From: a virus
Virus record (IMG/VR): IMGVR_UViG_3300033143_005075
Span: 1 to 64,000 of that record
DNA length: 64,000 bases
Direction: 5' to 3' (one strand)
A program made the position numbers and the translations under genes. Shown here piece after piece: positions 37,535-53,515 of this stretch. The number at the start of each line of letters is the position of its first letter. The first letter of the stretch is position 1. The notes under the pieces were generated by a model, which was given only the letters and a program-made list of their open reading frames with translations, was not told the DNA's origin and did not search any database.

Positions 37535-38609
37535 GATCATAAAAGCATCCGAGCTAAGAAGTCAGGAGTATATACCAACAGGTAACCCAGCATTTGATTT
37601 AGTATTCGGAGGCTGGCCACGTGGTATGTTCTCATGTATCTATGGCGGACCCGGATGTGGAAAGACAAGTCTTATTATGCAGGCTATTGCACATGAACAA
37701 AGTTTGAACATGGGAATATTCATAGCTGAATCTGAACAAAGCTTCTCAAAGAAATGGGCAGTAACACACGGAGTTGACCTCGAGAACCTAGTTATGACAC
37801 AAAGCACAGATCTTGGTAGTGTCCTAGATGCTGTCGTCAGGATCGCAGCGACTGGCAAATGTGATGTCATCTACGTTGACTCTCTCGCTACTCTAAGTCC
37901 TAAAGAGATGAGAAAGAAGGGAGTCGATGAAGATGACATGGCAATCGTAGCTAGAAGACTCGGTCGATTCTTCCAGATTGCTCCTGAGACCATTAAGAAA
38001 TCAAATACTGCTATTGTATTTGTTACCCAGAAAAGAGATTCATTAGATCTATTCTCTGGTGGTCTGGAACAATATCCTGGAGGCAACGCTCTCAAACATC
38101 AATTGGCAATGGCTATCAATGTACGAAGGTCTGGAAAGTCCGCTCAAAGAGACGGCGGAGCCAAGTTCATACAAGACAGACACAAAATTGGCTTTGCCAG
38201 TATGTGGAAAGCAATAAAATCCAAGGTTGATGTTACTGAGAATACAGGTGTCCTCCTCGACTTCTTCTTTGGAAGCGGATTTGATAATAAGAGTACTGTA
38301 TTCGAACTAGCACTTGGACATGGCATTCTGGAGAAGAATGGTCCAGGAGGATATAAGTTCATGGCGAACGATGGTAGCACATATGATCAACATGGATCAG
38401 AGAATGTTCTTCGTGACATCAGAACCAATGATGGATTATACAATCAAATGATAGAATCAATCAAGACAAGATGTAAACCAGGTAACTTCACGAACCCACC
38501 TTCTGATGTGGATACGGAGTACGAACAAGAAGCCATCCAAGATGAGAAAGCAAGAATGGAATCAAAACCAGAGGACAAAAAGACCGAGGAGAAACCAGCT
38601 AAGAAATGA
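37440..38609 (+). CDS. RecA-like recombinase
   Basis: Strand-exchange protein of 389 residues. ATG 37440 follows AAAGGAGAG. Walker A G-G-P-G-C-G-K-T-S (70-77), the catalytic Glu in A-E-S-E-Q-S, Walker B V-I-Y-V-D-S-L, and V-T-Q-K-R-D in the L2 neighbourhood. A Lys/Glu-rich acidic tail follows, ending K-P-A-K-K. It is nearer to UvsX and bacterial RecA than the smaller paralogue at 16087. Confidence 0.85.
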   Translation: MPKGKKNKAQELLEVTTRAMTAKAKDKRLNIEIIKASELRSQEYIPTGNPAFDLVFGGWPRGMFSCIYGGPGCGKTSLIMQAIAHEQSLNMGIFIAESEQSFSKKWAVTHGVDLENLVMTQSTDLGSVLDAVVRIAATGKCDVIYVDSLATLSPKEMRKKGVDEDDMAIVARRLGRFFQIAPETIKKSNTAIVFVTQKRDSLDLFSGGLEQYPGGNALKHQLAMAINVRRSGKSAQRDGGAKFIQDRHKIGFASMWKAIKSKVDVTENTGVLLDFFFGSGFDNKSTVFELALGHGILEKNGPGGYKFMANDGSTYDQHGSENVLRDIRTNDGLYNQMIESIKTRCKPGNFTNPPSDVDTEYEQEAIQDEKARMESKPEDKKTEEKPAKK

Positions 38610-38845
38610 GTGCATATTGCCCAAAAAGTTGTCAGTATATCAAGCAAGATATACTTAGCTCACATAAGATACCACGATATGATTGTTCCAAGTTTGGTGG
38701 ACATCTAGACATAAAGTATATGGAAAGCAAGAGATTCAGATTCATTCGTGTACCAACATGTAGGAACAGAGAATTCGACGACATCGATGAAGACATATAC
38801 CATGAAAGAAAGGAAAGCAATGGACAAGAAGAACCCGCTGCTTGA
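38606..38845 (+). CDS. Small Cys-containing protein
   Basis: The product has 79 residues, with an ATGA overlap with recA. C-P-K-S-C-Q near the N-terminus, Y-D-C and P-T-C-R later, so four Cys that could bind one zinc ion, then an acidic tail. Function unknown. Confidence 0.5.
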   Translation: MSAYCPKSCQYIKQDILSSHKIPRYDCSKFGGHLDIKYMESKRFRFIRVPTCRNREFDDIDEDIYHERKESNGQEEPAA

Positions 38846-39188
38846 TACAACATATGCAACGATTATTGGCAAAGAAAAGATACGACTTCTCTCGAAGAAG
38901 CAAGCAAAACAGGTAATCTCACAAGTAGAAAAGAACTGCTCAGATATAGAGATAGCCAAGAAGATTAGAGAAATCGCTTGGTTATATGGTGCTAGTGTCT
39001 TCGGAGTTGCTACGTGCATACTTGGTACACCTAAAGAAACATCAGAGATGATTCTACAAGCAGAATGGAGTCTCAAGGGAAGCATCTTACCATGTAAGGT
39101 AAAGCTCACAGTGGCAATGAAGGGCTTACTCCATTTCCTAGATATGATCAATAAGAATGTTGGTATACCTCAAGGGGGAAGATATTGA
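38820..39188 (+). CDS. Hypothetical helical protein
   Basis: The product has 122 residues. ATG 38820 is preceded by GAAAGGAAAG and overlaps the preceding gene by 26 bases. Alternating helices (S-K-K-Q-A-K-Q-V-I-S-Q-V-E) and a hydrophobic middle with W-L-Y-G-A-S-V-F-G-V. No family recognised. Confidence 0.5.
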   Translation: MDKKNPLLDTTYATIIGKEKIRLLSKKQAKQVISQVEKNCSDIEIAKKIREIAWLYGASVFGVATCILGTPKETSEMILQAEWSLKGSILPCKVKLTVAMKGLLHFLDMINKNVGIPQGGRY

Positions 39189-40267
39189 GACGACGTAAGG
39201 GCCCAACAGAATTCAAGCTTATTAGAATTCCAGAGAAACACATTAATATTGACACTGTAAAAGAAGCTGTAATCAGTGCGATAAATGCTGAAGTACATAT
39301 TAAACGAGTTTCATATGATGAGTTCAGAGGAAGAACCACTCAAGACAATGTTAAAAGATACATTATGGCTATTAGAACTGAGTTCCGCCAGTATCTTAAA
39401 GACATGAAAAAAGATCTAGAACAAGGAAAGACACCTGCATTCCAACAAAATCTTAACGATGGAAAGATTACAAGCATTGAGATGCCAAAACTAGGTCGTC
39501 CAGATGAGGATCCATCCAAAGCTGACAAGAGATATGGCATACTAGACATTCATAAAATCGATATCACATATGATCAATCTGGTAAAGACACATCCAGAAA
39601 GAAACCGTTTCTAGAAAGAATAGAAGATCATAGTGAAGAAGTTAAGCGTCTTGATCATGACATGAAACAACAAGTCATCCATGACAAATCATGGATTATC
39701 AATCTATGCTTGAACCCACTTATTCCAGTCATATCATTTGAACTTCTTGATGCAATCGCTATGAGAATATCCAGGATTACCGACACAGAAGTACTAGCAT
39801 TGGAGATGATACCATCAAATGGCAACCAAATCTTCTGGGAACATTATGCATCGTACAAAGCCAATGTAGCCACTCGAACACTTACTGTACCATATGGAAA
39901 ACATTTATTCACAGAATACAAGAAACATTCCGGAATAGAGATCCGCAAGATTCTCGCATGTATGGACAAGAACGTAGACGTAGTAATGGCACCAAAAGAT
40001 CTTGAAGAAATATCACGATGGGGAAGAGAGTTCTCACTCGCAAAAGAATTCATGAAGAAATCAGGTCTTCATGAAACAGAAAAAGCAGAATATATAAAAC
40101 TTGAAGAAGATATTACATTGCTCGAAAGTGAAAGGGCACAAACAGAGAAGATGCTTTTCCAAGATGCAGATGTAGAAAGCATCTACTTCAAGATAAGAGA
40201 CCCAAGAGAACTCGCCAAGTTCAAATGGCGAAGCCTACATAGGCAAGACGAAACCAAACTCAACTAA
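39185..40267 (+). CDS. Hypothetical protein, 360 residues
   Basis: Start is TTG 39185, six bases behind AGGGGG, overlapping the previous TGA (TTGA). The protein is charged and mixed alpha/beta. C-terminal 60 residues form a probable coiled coil (E-E-D-I-T-L-L-E-S-E-R-A-Q-T-E). No motif recognised. It lies directly upstream of the ribonucleotide reductase genes but shows no similarity to known partners. Confidence 0.6.
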   Translation: MRRRKGPTEFKLIRIPEKHINIDTVKEAVISAINAEVHIKRVSYDEFRGRTTQDNVKRYIMAIRTEFRQYLKDMKKDLEQGKTPAFQQNLNDGKITSIEMPKLGRPDEDPSKADKRYGILDIHKIDITYDQSGKDTSRKKPFLERIEDHSEEVKRLDHDMKQQVIHDKSWIINLCLNPLIPVISFELLDAIAMRISRITDTEVLALEMIPSNGNQIFWEHYASYKANVATRTLTVPYGKHLFTEYKKHSGIEIRKILACMDKNVDVVMAPKDLEEISRWGREFSLAKEFMKKSGLHETEKAEYIKLEEDITLLESERAQTEKMLFQDADVESIYFKIRDPRELAKFKWRSLHRQDETKLN

Positions 40268-40287
40268 CCTACTCTGGAGGAACTGAT

Positions 40288-42408
40288 ATGAGCGCACAGC
40301 AAACTAAGAAGGACTATGCCCCAAGACGAGTGAGACTACATAGCGGTAAGATCGCCAAGTATAAAGAAGACCATATCAGAAACAAGATTCTAAAACTTGC
40401 TGCATCCTGCAAGGTAAAGGGACCAAAGACATTCTCGAAAAATATAGCTGGTTTAGTAACACAAACACTCACAAAAGACAAGAAGGAAACACCCAGTGGT
40501 AATCAGATAAGCGATACCATTGAAGAAGTTCTGTTAAATTCAGAACACAAGAACGTAGCAAAGAAATTCATTCTCGAGAGAGCAGAAGAGAAGAGACTGA
40601 AGAAGATCGACAATCTGTTCTCTGAAACTATGCAAGTCATGGATGATTATCTAGGCGCAAAGGACTGGCGCGTCAAAGAGAATTCAAACATGACGTATTC
40701 ACTTCAAGGATTAAACAACCATCTATCGAGCAGCACTACTGCTAAATACTGGTTGGATAGAATTTATCCTTCTGAGATAGCAGATGCACATAAGTTTGGG
40801 TATATACATATTCATGATCTTGGATCACTTGCGTGTTATTGTTGCGGTTGGGACTTGGAAGATCTTCTAATGACTGGTATCACAGGTGTTCCACAGAAGA
40901 CAATTTCTGGACCAGCAACTCATTTCTCATCTATCCTTGGTCAAATAATGAATTTCCTATACATGCTCCAAGGAGAAATTGCAGGAGCTGTTGCGCTTTC
41001 GAACTTTGATACACTATTAGCTCCATTCATCAAGAAGGATGGACTAAACCAGAAGCAAGTAAAGCAAGGCATTCAAGAGTTCGTATACAATATGAACTCG
41101 CCACTGAGAACTGGGTTTCAACAAACGTTCTCGAACATCACGATGGACATGGTGCCATCATCACTGTATGCCGATCGACCATGTATCATTGGTGGCAAAC
41201 AGATGGATTTCACATATAAAGAATGTGCGAAAGAGATGGAGATGATCAATATCGCTTTCGCAGAAACAATGATGGAGGGTGACTCAAGGGGTGCTATTCA
41301 CTCCTTCCCGATCCCAACTTATAATATTACAGATGAATTCATCTGGGATTCTCCCGCGGCAAAAAAGGTATGGGAAATGACAGCAAAACTAGGCGTACCA
41401 TACTTTGCTAATATGGTAAACTCAGGTATAAAACCTGAAGATATTCGCAGCATGTGTTGTCGAATTTCTATCGATAATCGTGAACTCAGGAAGAGACTTG
41501 GTGGTATCTTTGCATCTGCTCCATTAACAGGAAGTGTCGGAGTATGCACACTTAACCTACCAAGACTCGCTTATATATCAAGTGATAAAGAAGAGTTCTT
41601 TGAAAACGTTGAAGCATATATGGAAGTTGCAAGAGATAGTCTAGAGATTAAACGCAAGATCTTAGAAGATCTAATGGATAGAGAACTCTATCCATATTCT
41701 AAGTTCTATCTCAGATCAATTAAACAACGGAGTGGTGCATATTATACAAACCATTTCTCAACAGTTGGTCTAGTAGGTATGCATGAAGCATGTCTCAATC
41801 TCCTGGGAGATGGGATACAAACCAAAGCCGGAAAGGCATTAGCTATAGAGACACTCACGTTCATGAAGAAAATCACACAAGAATTCCAAGTCACTACCGG
41901 AAATCTATATAATCTAGAAGCAACACCAGCAGAAGGCGCATGTTACAGACTAGCAAAAGCAGATCAGAAATCGTTTGGTGCCGAAGCTGCTCATGCAGGA
42001 GACAAGATTGTATATTATACTAATTCAACACATCTACCTGTAGGACACACAGATGATCTGTTTAAGGCACTAGATCATCAAGATGAGTTACAGTGTCTTT
42101 ACACCGGTGGTACTGTGCTTCATTCATTCCTAGGTGAAAGTGCGCCAGACCCAGAAGCATTAGCAGGTCTCATCAAGAAGATCACTTCGAAGTACAAGTT
42201 ACCATATATTTCAATCACACCAACGTTTACGATCTGCGAAGAACATGGATATCTAAAAGGCGAACATCATAAATGTCCACACGAAGGATGTATCGCTATA
42301 GTGAATGTCTATTCAAGAGTGGTTGGTTATTACAGACCGGTCAGTAGCTGGAATGACGGAAAGAAAAGCGAGTATGGAGACAGAAGAACATACTGCCTAC
42401 CAGCATAA
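40288..42408 (+). CDS. nrdD: Anaerobic (class III) ribonucleoside-triphosphate reductase
   Basis: Makes dNTPs from NTPs without oxygen by a glycyl radical. The product has 706 residues. An N-terminal ATP-cone (residues 10-105, K-I-x-K-Y-K-E-D-H-I), the catalytic barrel with a conserved Cys (M-C-C-R-I-S, S-V-G-V-C-T-L-N), a C-terminal zinc site (C-E-E-H-G-Y and C-P-H-E-G-C) and the glycyl radical loop R-V-V-G-Y-Y-R-P at about residue 680 are all present. GGAGGAA precedes the ATG. Followed by its activase. Confidence 0.92.
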   Translation: MSAQQTKKDYAPRRVRLHSGKIAKYKEDHIRNKILKLAASCKVKGPKTFSKNIAGLVTQTLTKDKKETPSGNQISDTIEEVLLNSEHKNVAKKFILERAEEKRLKKIDNLFSETMQVMDDYLGAKDWRVKENSNMTYSLQGLNNHLSSSTTAKYWLDRIYPSEIADAHKFGYIHIHDLGSLACYCCGWDLEDLLMTGITGVPQKTISGPATHFSSILGQIMNFLYMLQGEIAGAVALSNFDTLLAPFIKKDGLNQKQVKQGIQEFVYNMNSPLRTGFQQTFSNITMDMVPSSLYADRPCIIGGKQMDFTYKECAKEMEMINIAFAETMMEGDSRGAIHSFPIPTYNITDEFIWDSPAAKKVWEMTAKLGVPYFANMVNSGIKPEDIRSMCCRISIDNRELRKRLGGIFASAPLTGSVGVCTLNLPRLAYISSDKEEFFENVEAYMEVARDSLEIKRKILEDLMDRELYPYSKFYLRSIKQRSGAYYTNHFSTVGLVGMHEACLNLLGDGIQTKAGKALAIETLTFMKKITQEFQVTTGNLYNLEATPAEGACYRLAKADQKSFGAEAAHAGDKIVYYTNSTHLPVGHTDDLFKALDHQDELQCLYTGGTVLHSFLGESAPDPEALAGLIKKITSKYKLPYISITPTFTICEEHGYLKGEHHKCPHEGCIAIVNVYSRVVGYYRPVSSWNDGKKSEYGDRRTYCLPA

Positions 42409-42423
42409 TTGAAGGAGTAATCC

Positions 42424-43137
42424 ATGGTAGGAGCAATAACAAACCTCTCTCTTGTTGATTACCCTAGCTTACCAGCTATGGTGATCTTCATGAAGGGATG
42501 CAACCTAAAATGTACATACTGTCACAACATGGCACTCGCAAGAATGCCACAAGTTGTGGAATCAATAGAAATGAGAAGAGTAATACACCGGATGAGAAAG
42601 AGCAAAGATCTTATCGATGCAGTTGTGATAACCGGGGGTGAACCATTACACGGTGAACCCCCATGCTCATCATTCAATGAGATTCAAACCATTGCATTGG
42701 AGGCACACAAACTTGGCTTAATGGTTAAGCTAGATACAAATGGTACATATGCTGACAGATTATCATATGTGATAACCAGACTTCACATCGATTATGTCGC
42801 AATGGATATCAAGACATATCCACAAGCAGGACAAAATCGAAAAGGATATGAAGCCAAACACTGGAAGCAAATCATATCTAGCTTAGATGTAATGGAAAAC
42901 TATCGTACATCGTTAGATTTCCAGTACGAGATCAGAACAACATGTCATCCTCTTTATGTGAACGAGAGGATCATCAGAGCAATTGCAAGACTAATACCAG
43001 ACGAAGTCCCTTACTATCTACAGCCATATCAGCAAGTAGAGGGCGATAATATTCAATCAACACCAGAGGGTGCACTGCTCCCATTTCTGGAGATAGCAAG
43101 TAGTGTTCATGCGGACACTCATATTAGAGGAGGATAA
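42424..43137 (+). CDS. nrdG: Anaerobic RNR activase (radical SAM)
   Basis: Generates the glycyl radical of NrdD. The product has 237 residues. G-C-N-L-K-C-T-Y-C-H-N holds the C-x3-C-x2-C cluster, preceded by S-L-V-D-Y-P (typical of NrdG), and I-T-G-G-E-P-L provides the SAM-binding G-G-E motif. Its position 16 bases after nrdD supports the call. Confidence 0.9.
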   Translation: MVGAITNLSLVDYPSLPAMVIFMKGCNLKCTYCHNMALARMPQVVESIEMRRVIHRMRKSKDLIDAVVITGGEPLHGEPPCSSFNEIQTIALEAHKLGLMVKLDTNGTYADRLSYVITRLHIDYVAMDIKTYPQAGQNRKGYEAKHWKQIISSLDVMENYRTSLDFQYEIRTTCHPLYVNERIIRAIARLIPDEVPYYLQPYQQVEGDNIQSTPEGALLPFLEIASSVHADTHIRGG

Positions 43138-43138
43138 G

Positions 43139-43978
43139 ATGGAGAATAAATCAATGAATCGAGAACAAATCATGGATGCAGTTGCTGGACTGTCAGATCC
43201 GCTTCCAAAGGAGAGAACGCAATCCAGGAAGGTTAAGCAATACAACAAAGACACCAGGAAGATGGAAGATATAGAGCTCACATATATCCCAATCTGGGTC
43301 ACGATTGAAGAATTCGATAAACGTTTCGGCACTCATTGGTCTGTCGAAAACTTAGAACAGACCATGAAAGACGTATCCTTCTCATACATGCAGGAAGTTA
43401 GACTTGAGAATGGAAAGCTGGACTGGATGAAACTTGAGCAGCAGAATGGCAAAGTAAAGAACTTTCCGAGGAAGGAAAGAATTCATGTCACAGAAAGTGC
43501 AGCATTTGTATCTCTTGACTTAGTTCTTAGAGACAATGAAGGTACTGAGATTTGCCGACGCCCAGGTACTGGTAGCGGAACAAATAGCGGTCAAAGGAAT
43601 TTGGACTCTGATAAGATGACCAAGACAGCTCTTGCTAATGCCATACGGAAAGCATCGAACAATTATGGCTTTGGTATTTATCTATGGCATGGTCCAGATG
43701 ATACTTTGCCTCAAAATGATCCCGAACCTATTGATGAATCAGCACCAGCAAAGACAGGTCCATCCATGTCTGAAATCAACTCTGAGAAAATCAAGCTTTT
43801 AAGAGAGAAGCATGGTCTTGGTAAGGATGACTTAAGTGATTACCTAAAAACCTGTTTCCCTGCTTCCAAAGGTCAATATGCATTCATGAAAGTTGATGAT
43901 GAAAATGGAACACAAGATGAAAAAGTAACGAAGTTCGCTAAGTTCATCAATGATTCCGTTGCAAGAAAGAAACAGTAG
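43139..43978 (+). CDS. Rad52/Sak-like single-strand annealing protein
   Basis: The product has 279 residues. ATG 43139 follows AGAGGAGG. The segment M-T-K-T-A-L-A-N-A-I-R-K-A-S followed by G-F-G-I-Y-L-W (about residues 157-182) corresponds to the conserved helix and G-x-G-x-Y-L-Y motif of Rad52-type phage annealases (Sak, DUF1071). N-terminal beta strands with R-I-H-V-T-E-S fit the fold. The C-terminal part has a small helical domain. Predicted to anneal complementary strands in recombination-dependent replication. Confidence 0.65.
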   Translation: MENKSMNREQIMDAVAGLSDPLPKERTQSRKVKQYNKDTRKMEDIELTYIPIWVTIEEFDKRFGTHWSVENLEQTMKDVSFSYMQEVRLENGKLDWMKLEQQNGKVKNFPRKERIHVTESAAFVSLDLVLRDNEGTEICRRPGTGSGTNSGQRNLDSDKMTKTALANAIRKASNNYGFGIYLWHGPDDTLPQNDPEPIDESAPAKTGPSMSEINSEKIKLLREKHGLGKDDLSDYLKTCFPASKGQYAFMKVDDENGTQDEKVTKFAKFINDSVARKKQ

Positions 43979-44010
43979 TATTCGGTCAGGATACCACAAG
44001 AGGAGATAAA

Positions 44011-47000
44011 ATGCCAGATGATCTAGATCTTATATCTGTAGACGATCTGTTAGCGTCTGTAGATAGTGACATTAAAGAGTTTGATGATAACCTTGAACAT
44101 CTCAAAGCTAAACGAGAAGAGGATACTCTTACAAGCTATCTAACTGATCTTGGATTTACACGAAAAGCTAAGGGTCCCGCATCAAGAAAATATCATCTAG
44201 TCCTTGTGGGAAAATCGGCAGATGGAATCGACATGATTCTCAGTAAGCATATTAATTTCGAGAGAGTCAATGCGATTAACCTACTTGACCAGAAGATACG
44301 GGTCAATAACGCTATCATCATTATCGATAACGAAGATGATTTCAAAGCTGCTAAGAAGGGCATAAAGACGAAGACTAAGTGTCCGCAGCTTTTTAATAGC
44401 GTAGTTGTCCTGGTCAAGAACAGAAAGATTATCGACTATTTATATTTCACAAAGAAACCTGCTATAGATGCTGAATCTAAGATAGTCTCTATCGTCTCTG
44501 GACGAACACTTCGTATCAGATTCCCATTTAATCTACATCTACATCCTGGGCTACCCAGAGAACATGCACAGATAACATCTCTGCCAATGGATCTTATATC
44601 ATCAATTGTTCTCTTGGTTCAGAACAGAATCTTTCCAATTGAGGGTCGACAAGGAAGATATATTGGAAACGTATATAGATACCAATTCCAACAAAGAAAC
44701 GAGGGATTGAGTCAAGCACTAGACGGATCCACCAATTATGGTCTTCCTGCGGTCGTAAATGATCATATCCTATCAGATATTGATCCAGTAAATATTCAAG
44801 GTACAACAGAGGAAGATGATCCTGAATCTAATAGTGCTCGAAACACTCGCAAAAGACTAGATGCATGTGATGTGAACATTGTTGCATATGAATTCGAAAT
44901 AGAGCTAGCAAAGTTTGAGGGCTCCGTTCTGAGAATTGAGCTATTACTAGGAATCTTGGAAAAAGAAGGCTTCGACGTTGACGATAGCACTAAGACTACT
45001 ATTATTAAAGCAGTAAGGAACATCAAGAAATGGATGTCCCCTCCACCTGCTCAAGTAGAGAAAGATGACTTGTTCAGAACACACATGGGACAGATCGAAA
45101 AGATCAACAAGATACACAAGCTAGAGCTGCAGTGGCATCAGAAGTATTCAATTGCTATGGCCATGAGAAAGAAGGCTTCAGTACTACAATGTGATGTAGG
45201 CCTAGGCAAAACTCGGATCGCAATCGGACTCCATCTTGCACTCGGTGTGAAGAGGACACTAGTATGCGTAGAACCCGGTGCTCTCAATGAATTCATAAGA
45301 GAGATGGATAAACTGAAGATGGAGAAACCTTTCATCATCAAGAAGCTGACAGACATCCCACTCGCCAAGGAAAATGCCACACCCATAACCTTAATCGGGT
45401 ACTCGATCTTAGGTGCTGAGACAAAGATAAAGAGTCGACGGTCCAATGAAGATAAGAAACAGAAGAGCCTATACAAGATACATACTACAGGTGATGATCT
45501 ACGAGGACTATTTGATCTGGTAATCTTTGATGAGTGTTTCACATATGACACTGAAATTATGACAAACAAAGGGCTAAGAAAGATTGGAGACATTGTCACG
45601 AACAGAGAAGATGTACTCGCATTATCAAAGAACTTAGAAACTAACAACTGGGAATACAAACCCGTAGTACATTATTTTCATAAGCCATATGTTGACAACC
45701 TCGTCAAAGTAGAATATAATAATGGACATAGCATCATATGTACTCCAGACCATAAAATCTGGACAAAGGAGAAAGGCTATGTCAAGGCAAAGGAACTACG
45801 AAACGAGACAGTGTGCTTCATGTGGAACAACGTTCACATATTACAGACCAAAATCAACAAGACAACAAAAATGCTGCAGTACGAAGTGTGCAGGAATTCT
45901 TCGCCGTGTAAAGATGATAACAAAAACCTGCAAGTGGTGTGGGAAAGACTTCAGCCTAGGTACCGGACTAACGAGAAAGAGCAAGAACACACGATTCTGC
46001 GGAAAGCAATGTTCTGCAAAATGGCGATGCAGTCAACCAAAACAACAAAAGAGATTCCACATTATACAAAAGAAATACAAGAAGAAAGCAACTGCTGCTC
46101 TACGAAAGACTGGATTCAAAGCACAATCAGAACGAATGAAACGAATGAACGCAGACCCAGAATTTCAGAGGAAAGCTATTGCTGGCACAAAGAAGAGATG
46201 GAAAAAGAACCCCACGTTTCTCTCCAGAGGAGGAAACGGGAAGTTAACTGTGCCACAACTGAAGCTTCACAAAGCAACAGGATACCCAATGGAATTTCAG
46301 ATCGGTCTAAAGAATCTCAGAAGGAAGAGACCAGATCTCTGTCTTCCGACAAAGTATGCAGTCGACCTAGCAATTCCCGACAAGAAGATAGCAATCGAAG
46401 TAGACGGAGAATCTCACAAGACAAAGAAATGGAAGTATCTCGACAAAAGGAAAGAATCCGTATTGCTTATGCTAGGGTGGAAAATGTTACGATTCTGGAA
46501 CAAAGAAGTAATGGAAAATCTGGATACAGTCCTCAGCAAGATCAAAGAGTGTTCAACATCGACGTAGGAGATAATCACAACTATGTAGCTAACGGATTAC
46601 TCGTCAAAAATTGTCAAAACGTTAAATCTCCTACATCTTTGAAGTCAAAGTCAGCGATCAGACTAAGACCAGCTCGCTCCATGTTCATGAGTGGTACAGT
46701 CATTACTAATAAGATGGCTGAGCTAGCTACATATGCAGTGATCGGATATGGTAGCAAGAGCTGTGTATCCAAGGTCGATGCCACTCCGATATCCCACATA
46801 GGAACAGAGATCAGACGGAAAAATAAGAAGGTAGTAGCCAGGCTCGGAGAGGACAAAAAGGGAGAACCAACATACAAGATTGTTCATAATATATCAACAA
46901 CAAATATGAGGCTTGCAAAAATCAATGATAAGATGAGCTCAGATCCTGAATTCACAAAGGACTATGTCCGAAACTTGGTTGTCAAGGTCGCCAGAGAGAA

Positions 47001-47763
47001 TGAAGGATTGGTAAAGAACGATATGTTTCGTTTCAATGTGAAAGAGATGAAAGTTGTCGCGGAACCAAACAATACACAGTTCGAACAATATCTGTCTATT
47101 CTAGATGGCTCAAGAGAATTCGTCAGAGATGAAAGCAAAAGCTTAGCACGACTAATCGCCATGATGAAAATCTCTGAGTGTCCAAAACTTCTTGATCCAA
47201 CATGGCAGAACACACCAACAGCTAAGCAATTAGTAACAAGAGACCTGGTCATTGACAAACTCAGTGAGGGAAGAAGTGTACTAGTCTTTACAGGATTCAC
47301 AGAAGCCAGTATAGATCTTAGTAATCTATTCAAGAACAGTGGAGCGAGTACTTTCTTGCTTTCAAATAAGATGACACCTTCAGCAAGATATAAAGTCATC
47401 GAGAACTTCAGAAAGACTCCAAATAGTGTAGCTGTTGGTAACATAGGAATCCTTGGAAAGAGCTTCAATTTGGAACAAGCTGATGTTGTTATCATGTCAG
47501 ATATTCCATGGTCACCAGCGTTCTATGAACAAGCTATCGGAAGAATCCTGAGGCCCGATCAGACAGGTAACCCAGAGGTCTATGTAATATTCAACAGGTT
47601 TATGATTGATCAATATAAATTCGAAGTTATCTCCTCAAAGAGAAAGACGATCGACAAATATCTGAAAGACAAAGACGTATCAGTCGAGGAGACAAAACAC
47701 ATATCATACAGAGACTTCCTACAGTTGGTTATCAGGAAGGCAGATGAGAGAGGTTCTACATGA
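44011..47763 (+). CDS. SNF2-like SF2 helicase interrupted by an intein
   Basis: The frame encodes 1250 residues; removal of the 359-residue intein (509-867) leaves an 891-residue helicase. N-terminal 370 residues have no recognised domain. The motor starts with W-H-Q-K-Y-S (Q-motif region), Walker A D-V-G-L-G-K-T (about 400), then motif II L-V-I-F-D-E, where the intein is inserted. After splicing motif II reads D-E-C-Q-N-V-K-S-P, matching D-E-A-H-x-x-K-N-P of SNF2 proteins. Motif III is M-S-G-T and motif VI is Q-A-I-G-R-I-L-R-P-D-Q. Without splicing the ATPase site is split. Role probably in fork remodelling or recombination, close to the annealase gene. Confidence 0.85.
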   Translation: MPDDLDLISVDDLLASVDSDIKEFDDNLEHLKAKREEDTLTSYLTDLGFTRKAKGPASRKYHLVLVGKSADGIDMILSKHINFERVNAINLLDQKIRVNNAIIIIDNEDDFKAAKKGIKTKTKCPQLFNSVVVLVKNRKIIDYLYFTKKPAIDAESKIVSIVSGRTLRIRFPFNLHLHPGLPREHAQITSLPMDLISSIVLLVQNRIFPIEGRQGRYIGNVYRYQFQQRNEGLSQALDGSTNYGLPAVVNDHILSDIDPVNIQGTTEEDDPESNSARNTRKRLDACDVNIVAYEFEIELAKFEGSVLRIELLLGILEKEGFDVDDSTKTTIIKAVRNIKKWMSPPPAQVEKDDLFRTHMGQIEKINKIHKLELQWHQKYSIAMAMRKKASVLQCDVGLGKTRIAIGLHLALGVKRTLVCVEPGALNEFIREMDKLKMEKPFIIKKLTDIPLAKENATPITLIGYSILGAETKIKSRRSNEDKKQKSLYKIHTTGDDLRGLFDLVIFDECFTYDTEIMTNKGLRKIGDIVTNREDVLALSKNLETNNWEYKPVVHYFHKPYVDNLVKVEYNNGHSIICTPDHKIWTKEKGYVKAKELRNETVCFMWNNVHILQTKINKTTKMLQYEVCRNSSPCKDDNKNLQVVWERLQPRYRTNEKEQEHTILRKAMFCKMAMQSTKTTKEIPHYTKEIQEESNCCSTKDWIQSTIRTNETNERRPRISEESYCWHKEEMEKEPHVSLQRRKREVNCATTEASQSNRIPNGISDRSKESQKEETRSLSSDKVCSRPSNSRQEDSNRSRRRISQDKEMEVSRQKERIRIAYARVENVTILEQRSNGKSGYSPQQDQRVFNIDVGDNHNYVANGLLVKNCQNVKSPTSLKSKSAIRLRPARSMFMSGTVITNKMAELATYAVIGYGSKSCVSKVDATPISHIGTEIRRKNKKVVARLGEDKKGEPTYKIVHNISTTNMRLAKINDKMSSDPEFTKDYVRNLVVKVARENEGLVKNDMFRFNVKEMKVVAEPNNTQFEQYLSILDGSREFVRDESKSLARLIAMMKISECPKLLDPTWQNTPTAKQLVTRDLVIDKLSEGRSVLVFTGFTEASIDLSNLFKNSGASTFLLSNKMTPSARYKVIENFRKTPNSVAVGNIGILGKSFNLEQADVVIMSDIPWSPAFYEQAIGRILRPDQTGNPEVYVIFNRFMIDQYKFEVISSKRKTIDKYLKDKDVSVEETKHISYRDFLQLVIRKADERGST
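45535..46611 (+). mobile_element. Intein with out-of-frame nested homing endonuclease
   Basis: Runs from Cys509 to Asn867 of the helicase precursor. Block A is C-F-T-Y-D-T-E-I-M-T, block B contains T-P-D-H (578-581), block F is V-F-N-I-D-V-G-D-N-H-N-Y and block G is G-L-L-V-K-N followed by Cys868 of the extein. The penultimate residue is Lys instead of the common His. Between blocks B and F, where a LAGLIDADG or HNH domain would usually be fused in frame, this frame encodes about 240 residues of Lys/Glu/Ser/Thr/Arg/Gln-rich sequence without recognisable domain, while the +1 frame encodes a complete endonuclease gene. Confidence 0.85.
45779..46567 (+). CDS. Homing endonuclease (Vsr/EDxHD type) in the +1 frame of the intein
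   Basis: The product has 262 residues. Its own ATG at 45779 is preceded by AAAGGAG (45765-45771) at seven bases. Two zinc knuckle sets come first: Cys12/15 with Cys32/37 and Cys51/54 with Cys74/78. A basic region with a NUMOD3-like helix (M-N-A-D-P-E-F) follows. The C-terminal nuclease core has D196, E207, D209, H213 and D222 in Y-A-V-D ... I-E-V-D-G-E-S-H ... L-D, the arrangement of the Vsr-like EDxHD endonuclease family, which is known from fractured, intein-linked phage genes. The stop TAG 46565-46567 falls inside intein block F. It should cut the intein-free helicase gene near codon 508 and promote homing. Confidence 0.85.
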   Translation: MSRQRNYETRQCASCGTTFTYYRPKSTRQQKCCSTKCAGILRRVKMITKTCKWCGKDFSLGTGLTRKSKNTRFCGKQCSAKWRCSQPKQQKRFHIIQKKYKKKATAALRKTGFKAQSERMKRMNADPEFQRKAIAGTKKRWKKNPTFLSRGGNGKLTVPQLKLHKATGYPMEFQIGLKNLRRKRPDLCLPTKYAVDLAIPDKKIAIEVDGESHKTKKWKYLDKRKESVLLMLGWKMLRFWNKEVMENLDTVLSKIKECSTST

Positions 47764-49226
47764 AGATAAAAACAGTTTCTATACCACTTCTTGCTACTCC
47801 AAGAGAAGAACACACGACGGAGGATGTACGAGTTCTTGAGTTAGCAACGTATAATCAATCAAGATGTAATATAGAATCTACACTTCGATCATATCTATAT
47901 CATGGATATAATACATTTCGATCTATCGCTCCCATAGAAGCAAATGATTTCGGCACTGTAGATCGACAAAGACTCTGTGAATTCGCTGCAAATAATACAG
48001 AAGAAATGAATAACTTGGCAGATAGCTCCAGAATCATACCCATTATGAGACCAATGAGAACTCATGTATCAGATAGTGTTCACCAAGTATCATCACAATA
48101 CACACAAGATCACCTACATGGAATAATGATGTCATCTCAGTCTTTGTCAATCCAGTACCCCGTGAGACAAGGTAATCGAGGCATAAGATACAGACGATTT
48201 ACTACAGGAGATAGCAGCTTTATCGATACACACGAGGAGAATATTGCATCTTCATACTTACCAAGCAGGTTACAAAGCGACTGGAGGCCTAACTTTAAGA
48301 AATGTCTTTCTGGATTCTTCATTGCACACGAAAAGAAACATATGCAAGAAGCTTTAATAACATCACTGCTAGATCCAACACGATATAATAGAAAGATTAG
48401 CACAGTATGTGAAGCAATGGTCACTAGTGCAGGTCAAGCAATTGTAACTGCAGTAAACAAAGGATTCTTTCCCAAGGTCGATTTTGTATGTCAACCTAAC
48501 AGCAGTCGGAACTCGATTCTTCTATCAAATCTGGACACATTGCAACACACACTCTCAAACAAGGAGATAGACCATCAAACCATACCATCATGGATATATA
48601 AAGTTCCATACTGTAAGCATATTGCTAGAGACACAAGACAGATAATCGATAGACCTCCAAAGCCTGACAGTGGGTATAGATCATCAGATGAGGCAGAGAT
48701 GTTCTCACGCAGAATGTTAGCAATGGGTTCAATTTTACCAAGACCATTCTTTCCAATTGTTATCCTACCAACTGGGATATTTGGTGCTGCTTTACCATCA
48801 ATGGAAAGATTAGTTAAAGAATATGCGAGTAATGATGTATCATTTCTCCATGACTCAAAGGAAGCCAAAAAACAGGCGAAGTGCAGCCATTGTGTTGGTT
48901 TCATATGTCCAGATACCAGATACTTTAACTATGCAGACAATGTATACATGATGGCTTTAATCGGTTCGATTATAGAATCAGCTGTGATGTTAAGAGAAAC
49001 CAAGGTGGTAGGATGTGAAACAAATAATACAGTTAATAATATCGACAAGATAAAACAAGAAATGAACATAATTTACAAGCTAAGAATCGGAAAGAAGTTC
49101 CTTCCCGGATATCTCAGACATATCTATGATAAGTGCAGAAGTCTGGAGTATAAGTGGCACAAGAAGAGGATGGAGATATCAGAATGGCGCTCACCATATT
49201 ACTATGAAAGAGGATATGCAGGATGA
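47760..49226 (+). CDS. Hypothetical protein, 488 residues
   Basis: Overlaps the helicase stop by 4 bases. Ser/Arg/Tyr-rich N-terminal half (repeated S-x-Y-x-x-R patterns, several H-x-H), a central helical domain and one C-S-H-C pair (about residue 378). No hydrophobic membrane span except short ones around G-I-F-G-A-A-L-P. No known family. It lies between the helicase and the primase-helicase, so a replication role is possible. Confidence 0.6.
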   Translation: MKIKTVSIPLLATPREEHTTEDVRVLELATYNQSRCNIESTLRSYLYHGYNTFRSIAPIEANDFGTVDRQRLCEFAANNTEEMNNLADSSRIIPIMRPMRTHVSDSVHQVSSQYTQDHLHGIMMSSQSLSIQYPVRQGNRGIRYRRFTTGDSSFIDTHEENIASSYLPSRLQSDWRPNFKKCLSGFFIAHEKKHMQEALITSLLDPTRYNRKISTVCEAMVTSAGQAIVTAVNKGFFPKVDFVCQPNSSRNSILLSNLDTLQHTLSNKEIDHQTIPSWIYKVPYCKHIARDTRQIIDRPPKPDSGYRSSDEAEMFSRRMLAMGSILPRPFFPIVILPTGIFGAALPSMERLVKEYASNDVSFLHDSKEAKKQAKCSHCVGFICPDTRYFNYADNVYMMALIGSIIESAVMLRETKVVGCETNNTVNNIDKIKQEMNIIYKLRIGKKFLPGYLRHIYDKCRSLEYKWHKKRMEISEWRSPYYYERGYAG

Positions 49227-51718
49227 CTGAGATAGAAAGACTGAAAACAGAACTTAAATCTAAGCTCCTTGAATACATGGAGCTTAAAGGGGTCAAAAGA
49301 TCAACCGGTCAAAATTTCCGCTGCCCAAATAGTAATGCTCATAAACATGGTGACAGAGCGGCTTCGGCATCGTTTTGGAGAGACGGACCTGAGTATAGAT
49401 TTCTATGTCATGGTTGTGGACTAGGATATGACATCTTTAATATGGCTAACGTCGTAGATGGACTACCAATTAGGGGTAGCGCATTCGTTACTAAGACGAT
49501 TCCCATACTATGTAAGGACCTGGGAATTCACTTCGATGATACAATGTTGGATGATCGCTTCAAGAAGAAGATAGCTGCAGTAAAAGTCAACGAAGCTATT
49601 GTCCAGTATATGATCAAGAAGACAGAGAGACTTGAGAGATATCTAGGACAGAGGAACATGACTCTAGAAGACTCCAAGCTATATCTGATAGGCAACGTTA
49701 ACTATGGAGAACTATATACTCATCTCAGGAAGACACATAGCGAAGAACAGATTGAAGCCGCGGGTGCCGGATACGGTCCCAACGATGCGAGATCCAGCCT
49801 TGCTAAACAGCTCTTTCATCAAGATAGACTACTGTTCGGAGTATGTGATGAAGCCGGGGCTCCGATTGGATTTGCTGGTCGAGATATGTTATTCGAGGAG
49901 AAGAAAGCAAACAAAAACATTACTGGAAACATAGCTCCGAAGTATCTGAATACTAATAACACCAAAGCATACAAGAAGTCCGCAGCTATGTACCTACTGG
50001 ACAGAGCCTTAGAATATACTAGAACTAACGGAGAACTATACATCTTCGAAGGATACACAGATGCAATAACTGCACACAAGCACGGACTGAAAAACTCCGC
50101 AGCACTAGGTGGTGTATCATTCAGTGATGACCATCTAACTGTTATGATCTCTAATGAAGTCAGAAAGATCATCTTATGTCTGGACAGTGATGAGACAGGA
50201 CAGAACAAGATGCTAGGTACAGTCGAAAAGATCTTCAAGAATAACAGGGCTATATCCCTTGACTTGATCATCCTCCCTCCAGGAGAAGATGATCCTGATT
50301 CCATGATTCGGACAAAGGGTATCGAAGCATTCAAGAAACTGGATAGATACTCTCTACCAGAGTATATTATTCATAATACATTCGTTGCCAACAAAGATCC
50401 ACTGGGTGACGAAGACGAAAAGATCAATAATTTCATGAGATGGCTCACAGGTTACACGAAGCAACCTATGCTAAGACGTCGAGCTATCCAACAATTATCA
50501 GATGTACTGGAAAAACCCTTTGCTGAGATGTGGGATCAATTCGAATGGATCCGAACAGTCGAAGATGATAATATTGCAGGGAAGGCAGACAGTTGCTGGA
50601 GCCAAATGATCTCCGATGGCAAACGAATGAAGCTCAACGACAGAATCCTTTTGCTAGAGAAAGCACAAAGTCAACTCTTTACATTCACGAAGCATAGTAT
50701 TACTGGAGATGACAGAGATTATACACAGCAGCTTGAGGAACTGGAGAAGGCTACTGTTAATGCCCGCTTCCAGATGTTGAAGACAGGGATGGCTAGATTT
50801 GATAAGTATATTCAAATTCCAAAGGGAGCCGCTCTGATAGGTATGGCAGGATATCCAAATCATGGAAAGAGCGCATTCACCAGGAATTTAGCAATAGGAA
50901 TCGCAGCCAACAATCCAGACACGTTCATTATATACTGTAGTCTTGATGATCCAAGTACAGCAACTATTCCTGCTATTATAGCTAACATGATGAGCATGCC
51001 GATTAACAACGTAAAGTATCCAGGAAGCATAACCATACCTGAAATCAGGGAGGAATCACTGAAGAAGGTTGCACAAGGCTTCGACAACATGAGAAGGATG
51101 GCACTTGGTGAGCTTCAATGGAAGAACAAGATGTATGGAAGAGTCATTGTAAAAGACTCTAGTGAGGTTGTCTCTATCGTAGATATCAAGAGGCTTGTTG
51201 AAGTCTTCCATAACAAGAAGGAACTCTCCGGTAGGCAAATGGTGCTGTTCGTAGATAGTCTGCATAGCTTCATGGATGTTACATCGTACGGAGGAGACGC
51301 ACGCGCTAACGTTATGGATACTGCTCAACAGCTGAAGAGACTGGCTACCAAGTATGATATGCCCGTCTTTAGTGTGCTAGAGATGAACAAATCTGAGAGA
51401 ACTGGCAATCGGAAGCCCACTCTGAACAGTATTTCAGAGACAATAAGAATAGAATATTTGCTTGACTTAGGTGTGGTTATATGGAATGATCTACAAGCCA
51501 AGGGAGAAAAGGGCACTAAGTACTCCTGGAATGATGGTTCATCAGGAAGGACATATCCTTACCTTGATGCAGACATTCAGAAGAACAAGCTGGGGTATTT
51601 CAAGGGTAGTATACTCCAGAAGTTCAACCCTGTGATGAACCAGATGACAGAACTGTCCCTGGATGAACAGAAAGAGATCAGAACCAGGGAACAACAGAGT
51701 AACGGAGACTGGTCTTAA
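49223..51718 (+). CDS. Fused primase-helicase (DnaG-type TOPRIM plus DnaB-type motor)
   Basis: The product has 831 residues in T7 gp4-like order. Zinc finger: C-P-N ... H ... C-H-G-C (about residues 33-73). TOPRIM primase core: F-E-G-Y-T-D-A (about 275) and C-L-D-S-D-E-T-G (about 319). Helicase: Walker A M-A-G-Y-P-N-H-G-K-S (about 541-550), Walker B L-F-V-D-S-L-H, and a Q/N-containing strand V-L-E-M-N-K-S. It unwinds DNA and primes lagging-strand synthesis. It overlaps the previous gene by 4 bases. Confidence 0.9.
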   Translation: MTEIERLKTELKSKLLEYMELKGVKRSTGQNFRCPNSNAHKHGDRAASASFWRDGPEYRFLCHGCGLGYDIFNMANVVDGLPIRGSAFVTKTIPILCKDLGIHFDDTMLDDRFKKKIAAVKVNEAIVQYMIKKTERLERYLGQRNMTLEDSKLYLIGNVNYGELYTHLRKTHSEEQIEAAGAGYGPNDARSSLAKQLFHQDRLLFGVCDEAGAPIGFAGRDMLFEEKKANKNITGNIAPKYLNTNNTKAYKKSAAMYLLDRALEYTRTNGELYIFEGYTDAITAHKHGLKNSAALGGVSFSDDHLTVMISNEVRKIILCLDSDETGQNKMLGTVEKIFKNNRAISLDLIILPPGEDDPDSMIRTKGIEAFKKLDRYSLPEYIIHNTFVANKDPLGDEDEKINNFMRWLTGYTKQPMLRRRAIQQLSDVLEKPFAEMWDQFEWIRTVEDDNIAGKADSCWSQMISDGKRMKLNDRILLLEKAQSQLFTFTKHSITGDDRDYTQQLEELEKATVNARFQMLKTGMARFDKYIQIPKGAALIGMAGYPNHGKSAFTRNLAIGIAANNPDTFIIYCSLDDPSTATIPAIIANMMSMPINNVKYPGSITIPEIREESLKKVAQGFDNMRRMALGELQWKNKMYGRVIVKDSSEVVSIVDIKRLVEVFHNKKELSGRQMVLFVDSLHSFMDVTSYGGDARANVMDTAQQLKRLATKYDMPVFSVLEMNKSERTGNRKPTLNSISETIRIEYLLDLGVVIWNDLQAKGEKGTKYSWNDGSSGRTYPYLDADIQKNKLGYFKGSILQKFNPVMNQMTELSLDEQKEIRTREQQSNGDWS

Positions 51719-51754
51719 TAAGCCTCCTTGTGAGGTGCTCCTGACCGAGCATTT

Positions 51755-51800
51755 GGACAACACGATGCGGATACCCTCTCAGTCTGCATCGTGGCTGTCC
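51755..51800 (+). other. Long imperfect hairpin upstream of the gene at 51815
   Basis: GGACA (51755-51759) and CACGATGC (51761-51768) pair with GCATCGTG (51786-51793) and TGTCC (51796-51800), a 13-bp stem with a small internal loop and a 17-base apical loop. The hairpin ends four bases before AGGAAG of the next gene, so it could control its translation. No T-run. Confidence 0.55.
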
Positions 51801-51814
51801 TCTTAGGAAGTGGA

Positions 51815-52342
51815 ATGATGAAGAAGATTGAAGTAGACTATAGAGAAGCAGCTATTGAAAATCTCCCATATCGCCTAGCGATAGATGATGTTGGTATATA
51901 TGCAGCAGCTGTAACTGGCGGAAAGAATCCGTACGAAAAACGGACAGAAAGAATGGAAGGACATAACGAAGCAATAATGGGGATTGCGAAGAAGGCGAGT
52001 CAGATAGCAGACTTTATCAGGAAGCATCAATATCGAACTGAAATCGAGGACGCTCTTTTAAAGGATTGGATACACATTGACGCAGATGAAACCATCAAGC
52101 TATACGTAAATTGCAACGATGTATTTTGGTGGGCATGTGCAGACTCGGAAGAGATCAAGCCGGAAGAGATAAAAGGTCTACAAGAGTGCGTTGAATTATC
52201 TAAGGCTTATGGTACTATACTCTGGGCTTGCAGGAAGAGGGGCATGAGACCACAAAGCCCATGGTTCGAAGATCTCTCCAAGGAAGAGTTAAAGCTCTTT
52301 AAGGCATGTGGTCCAAAGAGAGACAAGAAGGATGAAGGATAG
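51815..52342 (+). CDS. Hypothetical protein
   Basis: The product has 175 residues. ATG 51815 follows AGGAAG at four bases (a GTG at 51791 would lie in the hairpin stem). Mixed helical protein with W-W-A-C-A and I-L-W-A-C-R-K-R. It ends in a Lys/Asp-rich tail. No family recognised. Confidence 0.55.
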   Translation: MMKKIEVDYREAAIENLPYRLAIDDVGIYAAAVTGGKNPYEKRTERMEGHNEAIMGIAKKASQIADFIRKHQYRTEIEDALLKDWIHIDADETIKLYVNCNDVFWWACADSEEIKPEEIKGLQECVELSKAYGTILWACRKRGMRPQSPWFEDLSKEELKLFKACGPKRDKKDEG

Positions 52343-52684
52343 AAGGAGAAATAGATTTTCTAGGTACGGTAGCAGAAAGGGCAGATGCGGGACACAAGTA
52401 GACGTACTTGTGAGCACGGTACCCTATAACGGGGTGCGTCAGTGCGCTTCAGAATGCATGTTACATGTTTTACATGTCATGCGATGTCCAGGGTTCGAAT
52501 CCCTGGTTGTGCCTAGCGGAGGGTCCATGCTGGAAAAGCAGCTCGGTAATAGAGTCAGTTGTCCTCCGATAATTAAGTAAATCAACTGGCATTCCCGGAT
52601 CTCCGTAAATAGGGGCGGAACTGGTTCGAGCATGATATCTACTAGGGCGACGCAGGTAGCCACTCCCTTGACCTGCTTTTTATA
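52343..52684 (+). other. Structured non-coding region with a tRNA-like T-arm
   Basis: No gene fits in this 342-base stretch. Visible elements: ACAAGTA-GACG-TACTTGT hairpin (near 52394-52411), GCATG/CATGC hairpin (near 52456-52482), a perfect T-arm CAGGG-TTCGAAT-CCCTG (52489-52505) followed by GTTGTGC, and CGGAGG/CCTCCG enclosing GGTAATAGAGTC (near 52516-52568). A complete cloverleaf could not be drawn: no upstream segment pairs well with GTTGTGC (GCACGGT at 52414 pairs only with three wobbles). It may be a degenerate or intron-split tRNA or an unrelated structured RNA. Confidence 0.45.
52652..52681 (+). terminator. Intrinsic terminator at the end of the structured region
   Basis: GCAGGT (52652-52657) pairs with ACCTGC (52671-52676) across a 13-base loop, followed directly by TTTTT. 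It ends three bases before the next ATG, so it would isolate the structured RNA from the gene behind it. Confidence 0.6.
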
Positions 52685-53515
52685 ATGGATATACAGTCAA
52701 CAAGATATGCACAGTGGTTTATGCTGTGCCCTACCTACGCTGATATCGCTGAGAACGGTGATACAAGAGTTGCTGAAGTAGTGTATGAACGTTCGGTCGT
52801 TTTCGCTATGGCTAGGTACATGACCCTCCAAGTTAAACGTAGAGAATACTCTTTACCCCTCCTCAAAAAGCTTCTCAGAGCGCTCTTAAAGCGCTTTGAT
52901 GAGCAACTCATCAATAAGGCCTACCGTGCCGTCGATAACCTTTCATTTTGTGTAGGGAAAGCTATTCATACTGGTGGAATATCCAGAAAAAGAGTAGCTG
53001 GTTTTAATCTCCCTGTACTATACGTAGGTGACGGGAACCCAATCAATCTCAATATTGACCTTATGTTGTCTGAGGTTAAGACTAGTGAGACCTCGAGTTC
53101 CAGTCCAAAGTTTGGCCTTCGCTTAATAATTTACCATTTAGATCCTGACAGGGAACCAAGCAAGGTATGGTTACTGTATAACCCACGAGTAATGGGGACA
53201 GTCTGCCTCGCATCCGATCTCATGTCGACGAATCCAGTCTTAGTAGACGTTATTTCTGCTTTCAGGAAAACTGTATATAGGCTGGATCTCACGCCAGAGT
53301 ACATAGACGAATGCAAACAAAACATCCACAGATTAGGGAGGCAGATGACCTATGGGATATTGGGGAAGAATGCAACGAGACGCTGCAGGAATTGTCCTTG
53401 CAGAGGAGAATGTGAACGAAGAGGAACAACGGGAAAGAACGATGTTCGAAAGATATCAGAAATATCCACAAGAGTTGATGGACCTCTTCTCAGAGGCATT
53501 GGTGGAGCTTCATAA
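52685..53515 (+). CDS. Possible PD-(D/E)XK-like protein with C-terminal Cys cluster
   Basis: The product has 276 residues. L-N-I-D-L-M-L-S-E-V-K-T-S (about residues 120-132) has the spacing of an (N/D)-x-D ... E-x-K nuclease core, and C-R-N-C-P-C-R-G-E-C near residue 235 could hold an iron-sulfur or zinc centre as in Cas4-type nucleases. The assignment is tentative: the full motif set is not clear. No Shine-Dalgarno site is visible at the ATG, which lies directly behind the terminator. The last 74 bases overlap the next gene. Confidence 0.5.
   Translation: MDIQSTRYAQWFMLCPTYADIAENGDTRVAEVVYERSVVFAMARYMTLQVKRREYSLPLLKKLLRALLKRFDEQLINKAYRAVDNLSFCVGKAIHTGGISRKRVAGFNLPVLYVGDGNPINLNIDLMLSEVKTSETSSSSPKFGLRLIIYHLDPDREPSKVWLLYNPRVMGTVCLASDLMSTNPVLVDVISAFRKTVYRLDLTPEYIDECKQNIHRLGRQMTYGILGKNATRRCRNCPCRGECERRGTTGKNDVRKISEISTRVDGPLLRGIGGAS

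Follow-up and report, generated by a model that had tools for sequence, protein, structure and literature searches.

An intein in a phage helicase gene shares its DNA with a nuclease gene that is read one base out of phase, and we interpret the pair as one member of a widespread, apparently unnamed class of mobile inteins. The class comprises about 150 clusters from phages and bacterial-genome contigs, inserted mostly at motif II/Walker B of helicases and clamp loaders. In this interpretation, to which we assign a probability of roughly 0.8, the intein carries an independent homing endonuclease gene overprinted in a single phase, with dual coding of one strand in each of the two folds, splicing and nuclease. 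The nuclease is thereby freed from the precursor and expressed alone, and one stop codon plus one internal start would turn the arrangement into a split (fractured) intein. Both frames, the homology of their products to inteins and nucleases, and the conservation of the arrangement are established here by computation. The first-pass annotation had proposed, for this locus, a cis-splicing intein with an overprinted, separately initiated homing gene; that remains the best reading and now holds family-wide, with splicing and separate translation still unproven.

An intein within helicase motif II

The window analysed here is a 64,000-nt stretch of phage DNA, positions 1 to 64,000 of record IMGVR_UViG_3300033143_005075. 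Far from the locus of interest, it contains a 1208-residue open reading frame (ORF; 3147–6770) that matches RNA polymerase beta (Rpb2 domain 6) and beta′ (Rpb1 domain 2) together.

On the forward strand, which carries all the features described below, a single uninterrupted ORF (44011–47763) encodes an SF2/SNF2-like helicase (Pfam Helicase_C, E = 6.6e-15; PHROG DNA helicase, 2.6e-30). The ORF is host to a 359-aa intein (45535–46611; residues 509–867), which follows directly after the DE of helicase motif II and runs from Cys1 to a terminal Asn, with Cys+1 at 46612–46614. The initial observation that the helicase frame stays open across the whole intein, with the splicing blocks in that frame, is borne out by this ORF and by three profiles that exceed their cut-offs: Pfam Intein_splicing (PF14890; aa 516–867, 42.3 bits against a cut-off of 35.8), NCBIfam intein_Nterm (TIGR01445; aa 509–585, E = 2.5e-13) and NCBIfam intein_Cterm (TIGR01443; aa 847–868, E = 2.6e-5).

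The predicted model of the intein is ordered at its two ends. The N-terminal splicing domain (45535–45765), with Cys1 and the block B motif CTPDH, is supported by TIGR01445 and by the model (residues 11–110, block-mean pLDDT 86–97). The linker (45832–46461), which is the helicase-frame reading of the nuclease gene, is predicted to be mostly unfolded (model residues 111–320, ~210 residues, block-mean pLDDT 39–52). It is followed by a dual-coded stretch (46462–46497) that reads as the intein beta strand IAYARVENVTIL and, in the other frame, as the nuclease motif GWKMLRF; the models place a strand here in both products, at residues 320–331 of the intein (block 321–330, pLDDT 94) and at residues 235–240 of the nuclease. 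The C-terminal splicing region, VFNIDVGDNHNYVANGLLVKN plus Cys+1 (46549–46614), coincides with the TIGR01443 match. The best solved relatives of the predicted Hint fold are the NrdJ-1 and Npu DnaE inteins, and the best by sequence are NrdJ-1, which we take to be a fractured-gene (split) intein, and a DnaX mini-intein.

Cys1, the block B His, the terminal Asn and Cys+1 are all found in the window's intein, in which Lys, not the usual His, precedes the terminal Asn in block G. The same four residues are invariant in 35 aligned inteins, picked for clear N and C boundaries including Cys+1; Ser+1 replaces Cys+1 in two relatives, L048 and L054. A group I or group II intron was considered and ruled out, because the host frame is open (intron hosts are normally closed) and an Rfam search of 43500–48500 at E up to 1 returned no intron, its one match (E = 0.44) falling below the family threshold.

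A nuclease gene overprinted on the intein

In the +1 frame relative to the helicase, positions 45779–46567 form an ORF for a 262-aa endonuclease with a match to DUF559 (PF04480; aa 191–257, 54.2 bits against a cut-off of 20.6). A Shine–Dalgarno (SD)-like AAAGGAG (45765–45771) lies 7 nt 5′ of its ATG, and such sites are enriched in relatives, as described below. The first-pass annotation had placed the start and the TAG correctly and had rightly noted the AAAGGAG. An ATG farther upstream at 45722, which would give a product of 281 aa, was set aside because the SD rule chose 45779.

Pattern and alignment reveal two four-Cys sets (C12 C15 C33 C37 and C51 C54 C74 C78; 45812–46012), which we read as putatively zinc-binding on the strength of the pattern only. 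Seven of these Cys are invariant and C78 is nearly so in 26 aligned sequences picked for a full-length start; the first set is absent from some relatives (L022, L023, L024 and L027). An EDxHD/Vsr-like nuclease core follows (D196, E207, D209, H213 and D222; 46349–46549), in which D196, D209, H213 and D222 are invariant and E207 nearly so across 26 aligned sequences. Profile searches matched the nuclease to PDB 3hrl (2.3e-12) and 3r3p, which is I-Bth0305I (8.9e-5), and the same two structures were the top matches in a fold search with the predicted model (mean pLDDT 89.8, pTM 0.48), at probability 1.00 and an E value of only about 0.01. The early assignment to the EDxHD nucleases is supported by the match to 3r3p, and DUF559 belongs to that group according to a published report (PMC9403480).

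Conservation of the arrangement among relatives

Relatives were gathered by scans with the window's proteins and then with nuclease alignments, and candidates were selected by nuclease similarity, not by the state of the other frame (the window's own copies excepted). Each scan comprised the best 80 of 252–388 relatives, so all counts of relatives are lower bounds. The first round yielded at least 116 loci with a full-length nuclease, which a host ORF spans (30 nt of slack allowed at each end) in 110 and does not in 6; all 110 spanning ORFs lie in one phase and none in the other. These 110 loci, all chosen with an open host frame, form 86 clusters at 90 percent identity. An enlarged set of at least 273 loci, many of them duplicates of one place, forms 162 clusters.

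Both splicing motifs are present within one host ORF spanning the nuclease in 150 of the 162 clusters listed, and in three further open clusters (L111, L133 and L351) only one motif was found. The arrangement proposed from a single locus is therefore real, and is corrected to a conserved class. Seven of the 162 have no splicing motif (L056, L059, L087, L090, L096, L109 and L125). None of the clusters listed has splicing motifs in the other phase, and none has them in the nuclease's own frame, as an in-frame fusion would. A homologue with both motifs and a closed helicase frame, which would have counted against the proposal, was found in two of the 162 listed, L239 and L283, with a single host-frame stop in each. 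These lone stops lie in the linker (TAG at L239:3201 and TGA at L283:3009) and may be sequencing errors, recoding, decay or natural split-intein intermediates.

Relatives occur in phages and in bacterial-genome contigs, the latter of which may include prophages or misbinned phage. Among 71 nucleases compared, the median identity is 36 percent, from which we infer that the overprinted layout is old. Seven GenBank phage records (L021–L027) annotate only the helicase over the intein and miss the nuclease gene. Because the clusters share ancestry, the z and p values given here are nominal and overstate independence.

Several individual loci depart from the common arrangement. Five of the clusters without motifs (L056, L059, L087, L090 and L096) lie among phage structural genes, as judged by eye from the ORFs with no family searches. 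In L125 (3854–5919), a free gene closely related to the nuclease lies immediately 5′ of an uninterrupted, intein-less helicase with DESHH at the site, and there are 19 host-phase stops; this is possibly a homing gene adjoining its target. L109 (3950–4671), from Polaromonas, resembles a decayed overprinted intein that retains the motif codons, with two host-phase stops, and in which no splicing motif was found. L006 (3140–5299) has an intein-like insert whose DUF559-type nuclease is in frame with it; the host gene was judged by eye to be a DNA methyltransferase, and a scan with this nuclease found 6 loci, L006's own contig among them. One helicase, in L082 (2995–6888), matches inteins twice, once at the overprinted intein and once at another whose LAGLIDADG domain is in frame, and the contig IMGVR_UViG_3300044800_000040 has two separate nuclease-relative loci, L075 and L300 (about 36–44 kb and 56–63 kb).

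An open host frame is not expected by chance

When the nuclease core of the window was shuffled synonymously, the helicase frame acquired a mean of 9.4 stops and stayed open in 0 of 400 trials; the mean rose to 17.0 when codons were drawn according to the usage of the helicase itself. The Poisson values from these means, about 1e-4 and 4e-8, bracket the initial rough estimate of one in a million. The third frame has 15 stops over the nuclease core against 14.1 expected, and the stop first noticed in that frame at 45909 reads TAA.

Using one representative per cluster, chosen with openness disregarded, the host frame was found to be open over the nuclease core in 153 of the 162 clusters listed, against 0.08 expected from synonymous shuffles. 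These clusters contain 70 host-frame stops against 1654 expected, of which 68 fall in the seven motif-less clusters and one each in L239 and L283, whereas the third frame has 2872 against 2628 expected and is open in none of them. The 86 listed clusters have 0 host-frame stops against 864 expected, a result that is partly by construction because they were chosen with an open host frame. The control consisted of 62 nuclease homologues that do not belong to the first overprinted set, although the decayed L109 and the truncated L133 are among them; these have 302 stops against 383 expected; given this mild deficit, a small part of the openness effect is not due to the intein.

A second IMG/VR contig, L001 (234 kb), is identical to the window over 39174–53760, although the independence of the reads is unknown. 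Compared without gaps against window positions 38011–39173, L001 matches exactly only to the right of 39173. The identical contig and the open host frame in those 153 clusters make sequencing error unlikely, and so speak against the refutation that the first-pass annotation had anticipated, an error whose repair would restore one fused frame.

Selection and dual coding

Only four independent pairs of relatives were close enough (DNA identity of at least 90 percent) for a substitution test. Their nucleases differ by 8, 6 and 67 changes at codon positions 1, 2 and 3, respectively, and the same changes read in the host frame give 69 non-synonymous and 9 synonymous codon changes. Purifying selection therefore acts on the nuclease, and for most of the linker it is enough to remain free of stops. 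Over most of the overlap, the evidence is of selection on the nuclease sequence and, in the intein frame, against stops alone. Over all 29 pairs the third-position share is 0.47, a fall that saturation would give.

At the C-terminal end the outcome is different: the dual selection that the first-pass annotation predicted there is borne out by codon choice in the nuclease motif GWxVLRF. Compared with expectations from the rest of each gene, its Gly is GGG in 68 of 85 (28.4 expected), its Val is GTR in 71 of 75 (46.5 expected), its Leu is TTR in 65 of 78 (39.9 expected) and its Arg is AGR in 62 of 84 (38.3 expected), and the direction of these biases is unchanged in the enlarged set. Outside the overprinted set the motif Gly is GGG in only 9 of 61, the 9 including L109 and L133. 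In the intein frame, the GWxVLRF codons produce a conserved V-[ED]-S-[VI]-E-[VI] strand. This stretch is doubly constrained, with a codon bias in one frame that maintains the intein strand in the other.

Phase and initiation of the nuclease

The phase of the overprint is permissive. No dipeptide forces a stop in the host frame, and the nuclease need avoid only T-ending codons before AA, AG or GA. If the gene lay in the other same-strand phase, any Met before Ile, Lys, Met, Asn or Thr would create a host-frame stop, and 85 of 86 nucleases hold a pair of this kind. Stop avoidance can explain why a single phase is used; common descent alone would give it too.

A start codon precedes the first CxxC in 84 of the 86 listed clusters, the other 2 having no ATG, GTG or TTG, and in 73 of the 86 an ATG lies no more than 60 nt from it. 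Under a loose rule, which asks for 4 nt or more at a usable spacing, 58 of 86 clusters have an SD-like match and 28 have none. A stricter test with matched controls found SD matches of 6 nt or more in 21 of 73, compared with 33 of 2395 control windows (p = 9e-20); AAAGGAGGT, 6 nt before the ATG in L053 and L122, is an example.

Empty alleles, hosts and correlated distances

Two relatives have intein-less counterparts at the exact site, a count that leaves aside L190, an intein-less relative. In Corynebacterium phages, the helicase gene of phi673 is longer than that of phi674 by exactly the 906-nt intein, with 17 base differences besides, and at the site phi674 reads DEVHH where phi673 reads DE-intein-CHH. 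The helicase genes of CP-T1 and vB_VchM-138 differ in length by exactly 1059 nt, and vB_VchM-138 has DEAHH where CP-T1 has DE-intein-CHH.

Pfam searches of 55 of the 86 host ORFs, which left out the other 31, gave matches to Intein_splicing in 50, Helicase_C in 32, DNA polymerase III delta′ (clamp loader) in 20 and SNF2 in 10. Of the 80 clusters with an exact N boundary, 73 have an acidic pair just before the intein (DE in 71, EE in 2), as expected of motif II/Walker B. In the remaining seven the intein follows another pair (HA twice; FH, SH, GH, AH and AA), apparently two residues further on, which is perhaps a second insertion site within the same motif.

In a nuclease tree whose bootstrap is not fully settled, 20 rows form one supported clade (100/99), and 19 of these 20 have clamp-loader hosts. 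Host type was assigned by a pattern rule, and 19 of its 20 clamp loaders fit the clade; L073 is probably a false clamp-loader call and L065 probably a clamp loader that the rule missed. Distances between splicing domains correlate with those between nucleases (Mantel r = 0.53, p = 0.0005), and each set of distances also tracks that of the host sequences (r = 0.56 and 0.62); there is therefore no sign of frequent jumps between host families.

Interpretation and alternatives

We consider it very likely that the locus is a mobile intein whose splicing and homing functions occupy two coding layers of one stretch of DNA; splicing, internal initiation, cleavage and homing themselves are inferred. 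In the first layer, a ribosome making the helicase would translate through all 359 intein codons; the N-terminal part and the end strands, joined by the floppy linker of ~210 residues, would form a Hint domain that excises itself and restores helicase motif II. In the second layer, another ribosome would initiate at the internal ATG, one base out of phase and served by its own SD sequence, and produce a free EDxHD homing endonuclease. This enzyme would be expected to cut intein-less helicase genes at the motif II site, whereupon repair would copy the intein in. The phase permits any nuclease protein to be encoded without a helicase-frame stop, so that the nuclease can evolve while the host gene stays readable. 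Besides the two frames, their homologies and the conserved arrangement, computation demonstrates selection on the nuclease frame, selection against host-frame stops, codon bias that keeps the C-terminal intein strand and the empty alleles of two relatives.

Other readings differ in what they deny. If the insertion did not splice, as with the ShiLan element discussed below, the helicase would keep or tolerate the insert or be dead, and only the nuclease would matter. There is no splicing assay to exclude this, Lys stands before the Asn in block G of the window, and the ShiLan element is predicted by its authors to remain in the protein (PMC11855218). Such a reading leaves unexplained the invariance of Cys1, the block B His, the terminal Asn and Cys+1 in the 35 boundary-selected inteins and a codon bias that preserves a Hint strand. 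An active helicase needs an intact motif II, which is where the insert is located, and we regard a non-splicing insertion as unlikely. A fractured intein, in which a free-standing nuclease lies between two half genes, would be in keeping with the EDxHD nucleases that Dassa and colleagues reportedly found between split halves in 2009, with NrdJ-1, a split intein, as the closest solved relative, and with the one host-frame stop in each of L239 and L283; it is very hard to reconcile with the one open frame in the window and in the 150 clusters of 162 listed that have both motifs.

The route by which the nuclease is made could also differ, since +1 programmed ribosomal frameshifting, instead of internal initiation, would give a fusion of the N-terminal intein part to the nuclease. 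SD-like sites inside genes can stimulate frameshifting, as in release factor 2; the nuclease is always +1 to its host and 28 of 86 clusters have no SD-like match. Frameshifting is nevertheless improbable, as an ATG lies close before the first CxxC in 73 of 86 with SD rates far above those of matched windows, a nuclease-frame stop falls within about a codon before the start in L021, L050 and L122, and the fixed phase is accounted for by descent and stop avoidance. The absence of expression data leaves room for a nuclease frame that is merely a relic, with function confined to the intein frame, but the third-position excess in close pairs (8/6/67), in which the intein linker is free to change, and catalytic residues that are invariant or nearly so in 26 sequences speak against it, and for the family the substitution pattern in effect refutes it. 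Also in effect already refuted is an assembly or sequencing artefact, in which two indels split one fused intein–nuclease frame: no supporting evidence was found, L001 is identical, the phase is the same in 153 of the 162 clusters listed, including the seven GenBank phage records, and none of the 162 has an in-frame member.

Comparison with known systems

To our knowledge, inteins have been described with a nuclease fused in frame, split across broken genes or without a nuclease. An intein with an out-of-frame nuclease is not described in the literature searched, which covered titles, abstract openings and passages and left most subscription literature outside. The overprinted layout would be a further intein layout, common and concealed by gene annotation, and would show how a homing gene can occupy an intein without touching the splicing precursor. 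It also offers a natural set of about 150 same-strand overprinted lineages for studying the upkeep of open overlapping frames, a path connecting cis inteins with fractured split inteins that is open to test, and a ready pair in Corynebacterium glutamicum ATCC 13032, phi673 with the intein and phi674 without.

Canonical large inteins share with the window's a Hint splicing domain, a nuclease between blocks B and F, and mobility. Their nuclease is in the precursor frame, whereas that of the window is a separate +1 gene outside the precursor protein; the in-frame DUF559-type nuclease of L006, in another intein, differs from the overprinted family in the same way. Dassa et al. reportedly described, in 2009, split inteins with Vsr-like/EDxHD nucleases in fractured genes, where the host gene is broken and the product is spliced in trans. 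These resemble the window's element in having a related nuclease type, in occupying phage replication genes and in holding the nuclease gene within the intein, but their host is in two parts, whereas in the window's family one uninterrupted host frame runs over the nuclease. I-Bth0305I (3r3p) shares the catalytic fold and core motif of the window's nuclease, yet it is listed among the homing endonucleases of group I introns (PMC3943268) and not in an intein.

An element of the very same kind as the window's is present in the phi673 helicase. The phage's authors reported a putative helicase intein in phi673 and none in phi674, and the passage in which they do so makes no mention of a nuclease inside it (PMC6132909); the GenBank record annotates only the helicase there.

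The nearest precedent that we found for an out-of-frame nuclease in an open phage gene is the ShiLan domain (Arsenault, Gosselin and Gogarten 2025, PMC11855218). Like the window's element, it is an insertion in a phage gene that leaves the host frame open and encodes an endonuclease out of frame; it is described as spreading by homing, which for the window's element is inferred. Its nuclease is of the HNH type, whereas that of the window is EDxHD, and has no detectable ribosome-binding site (PMC11855218); going by the numbering given there (GTG at 18–20, 'third frame'), it occupies the other phase. The ShiLan domain is described there as having no splicing motifs and is thought not to splice (PMC11855218), whereas the intein in the window has splicing motifs.
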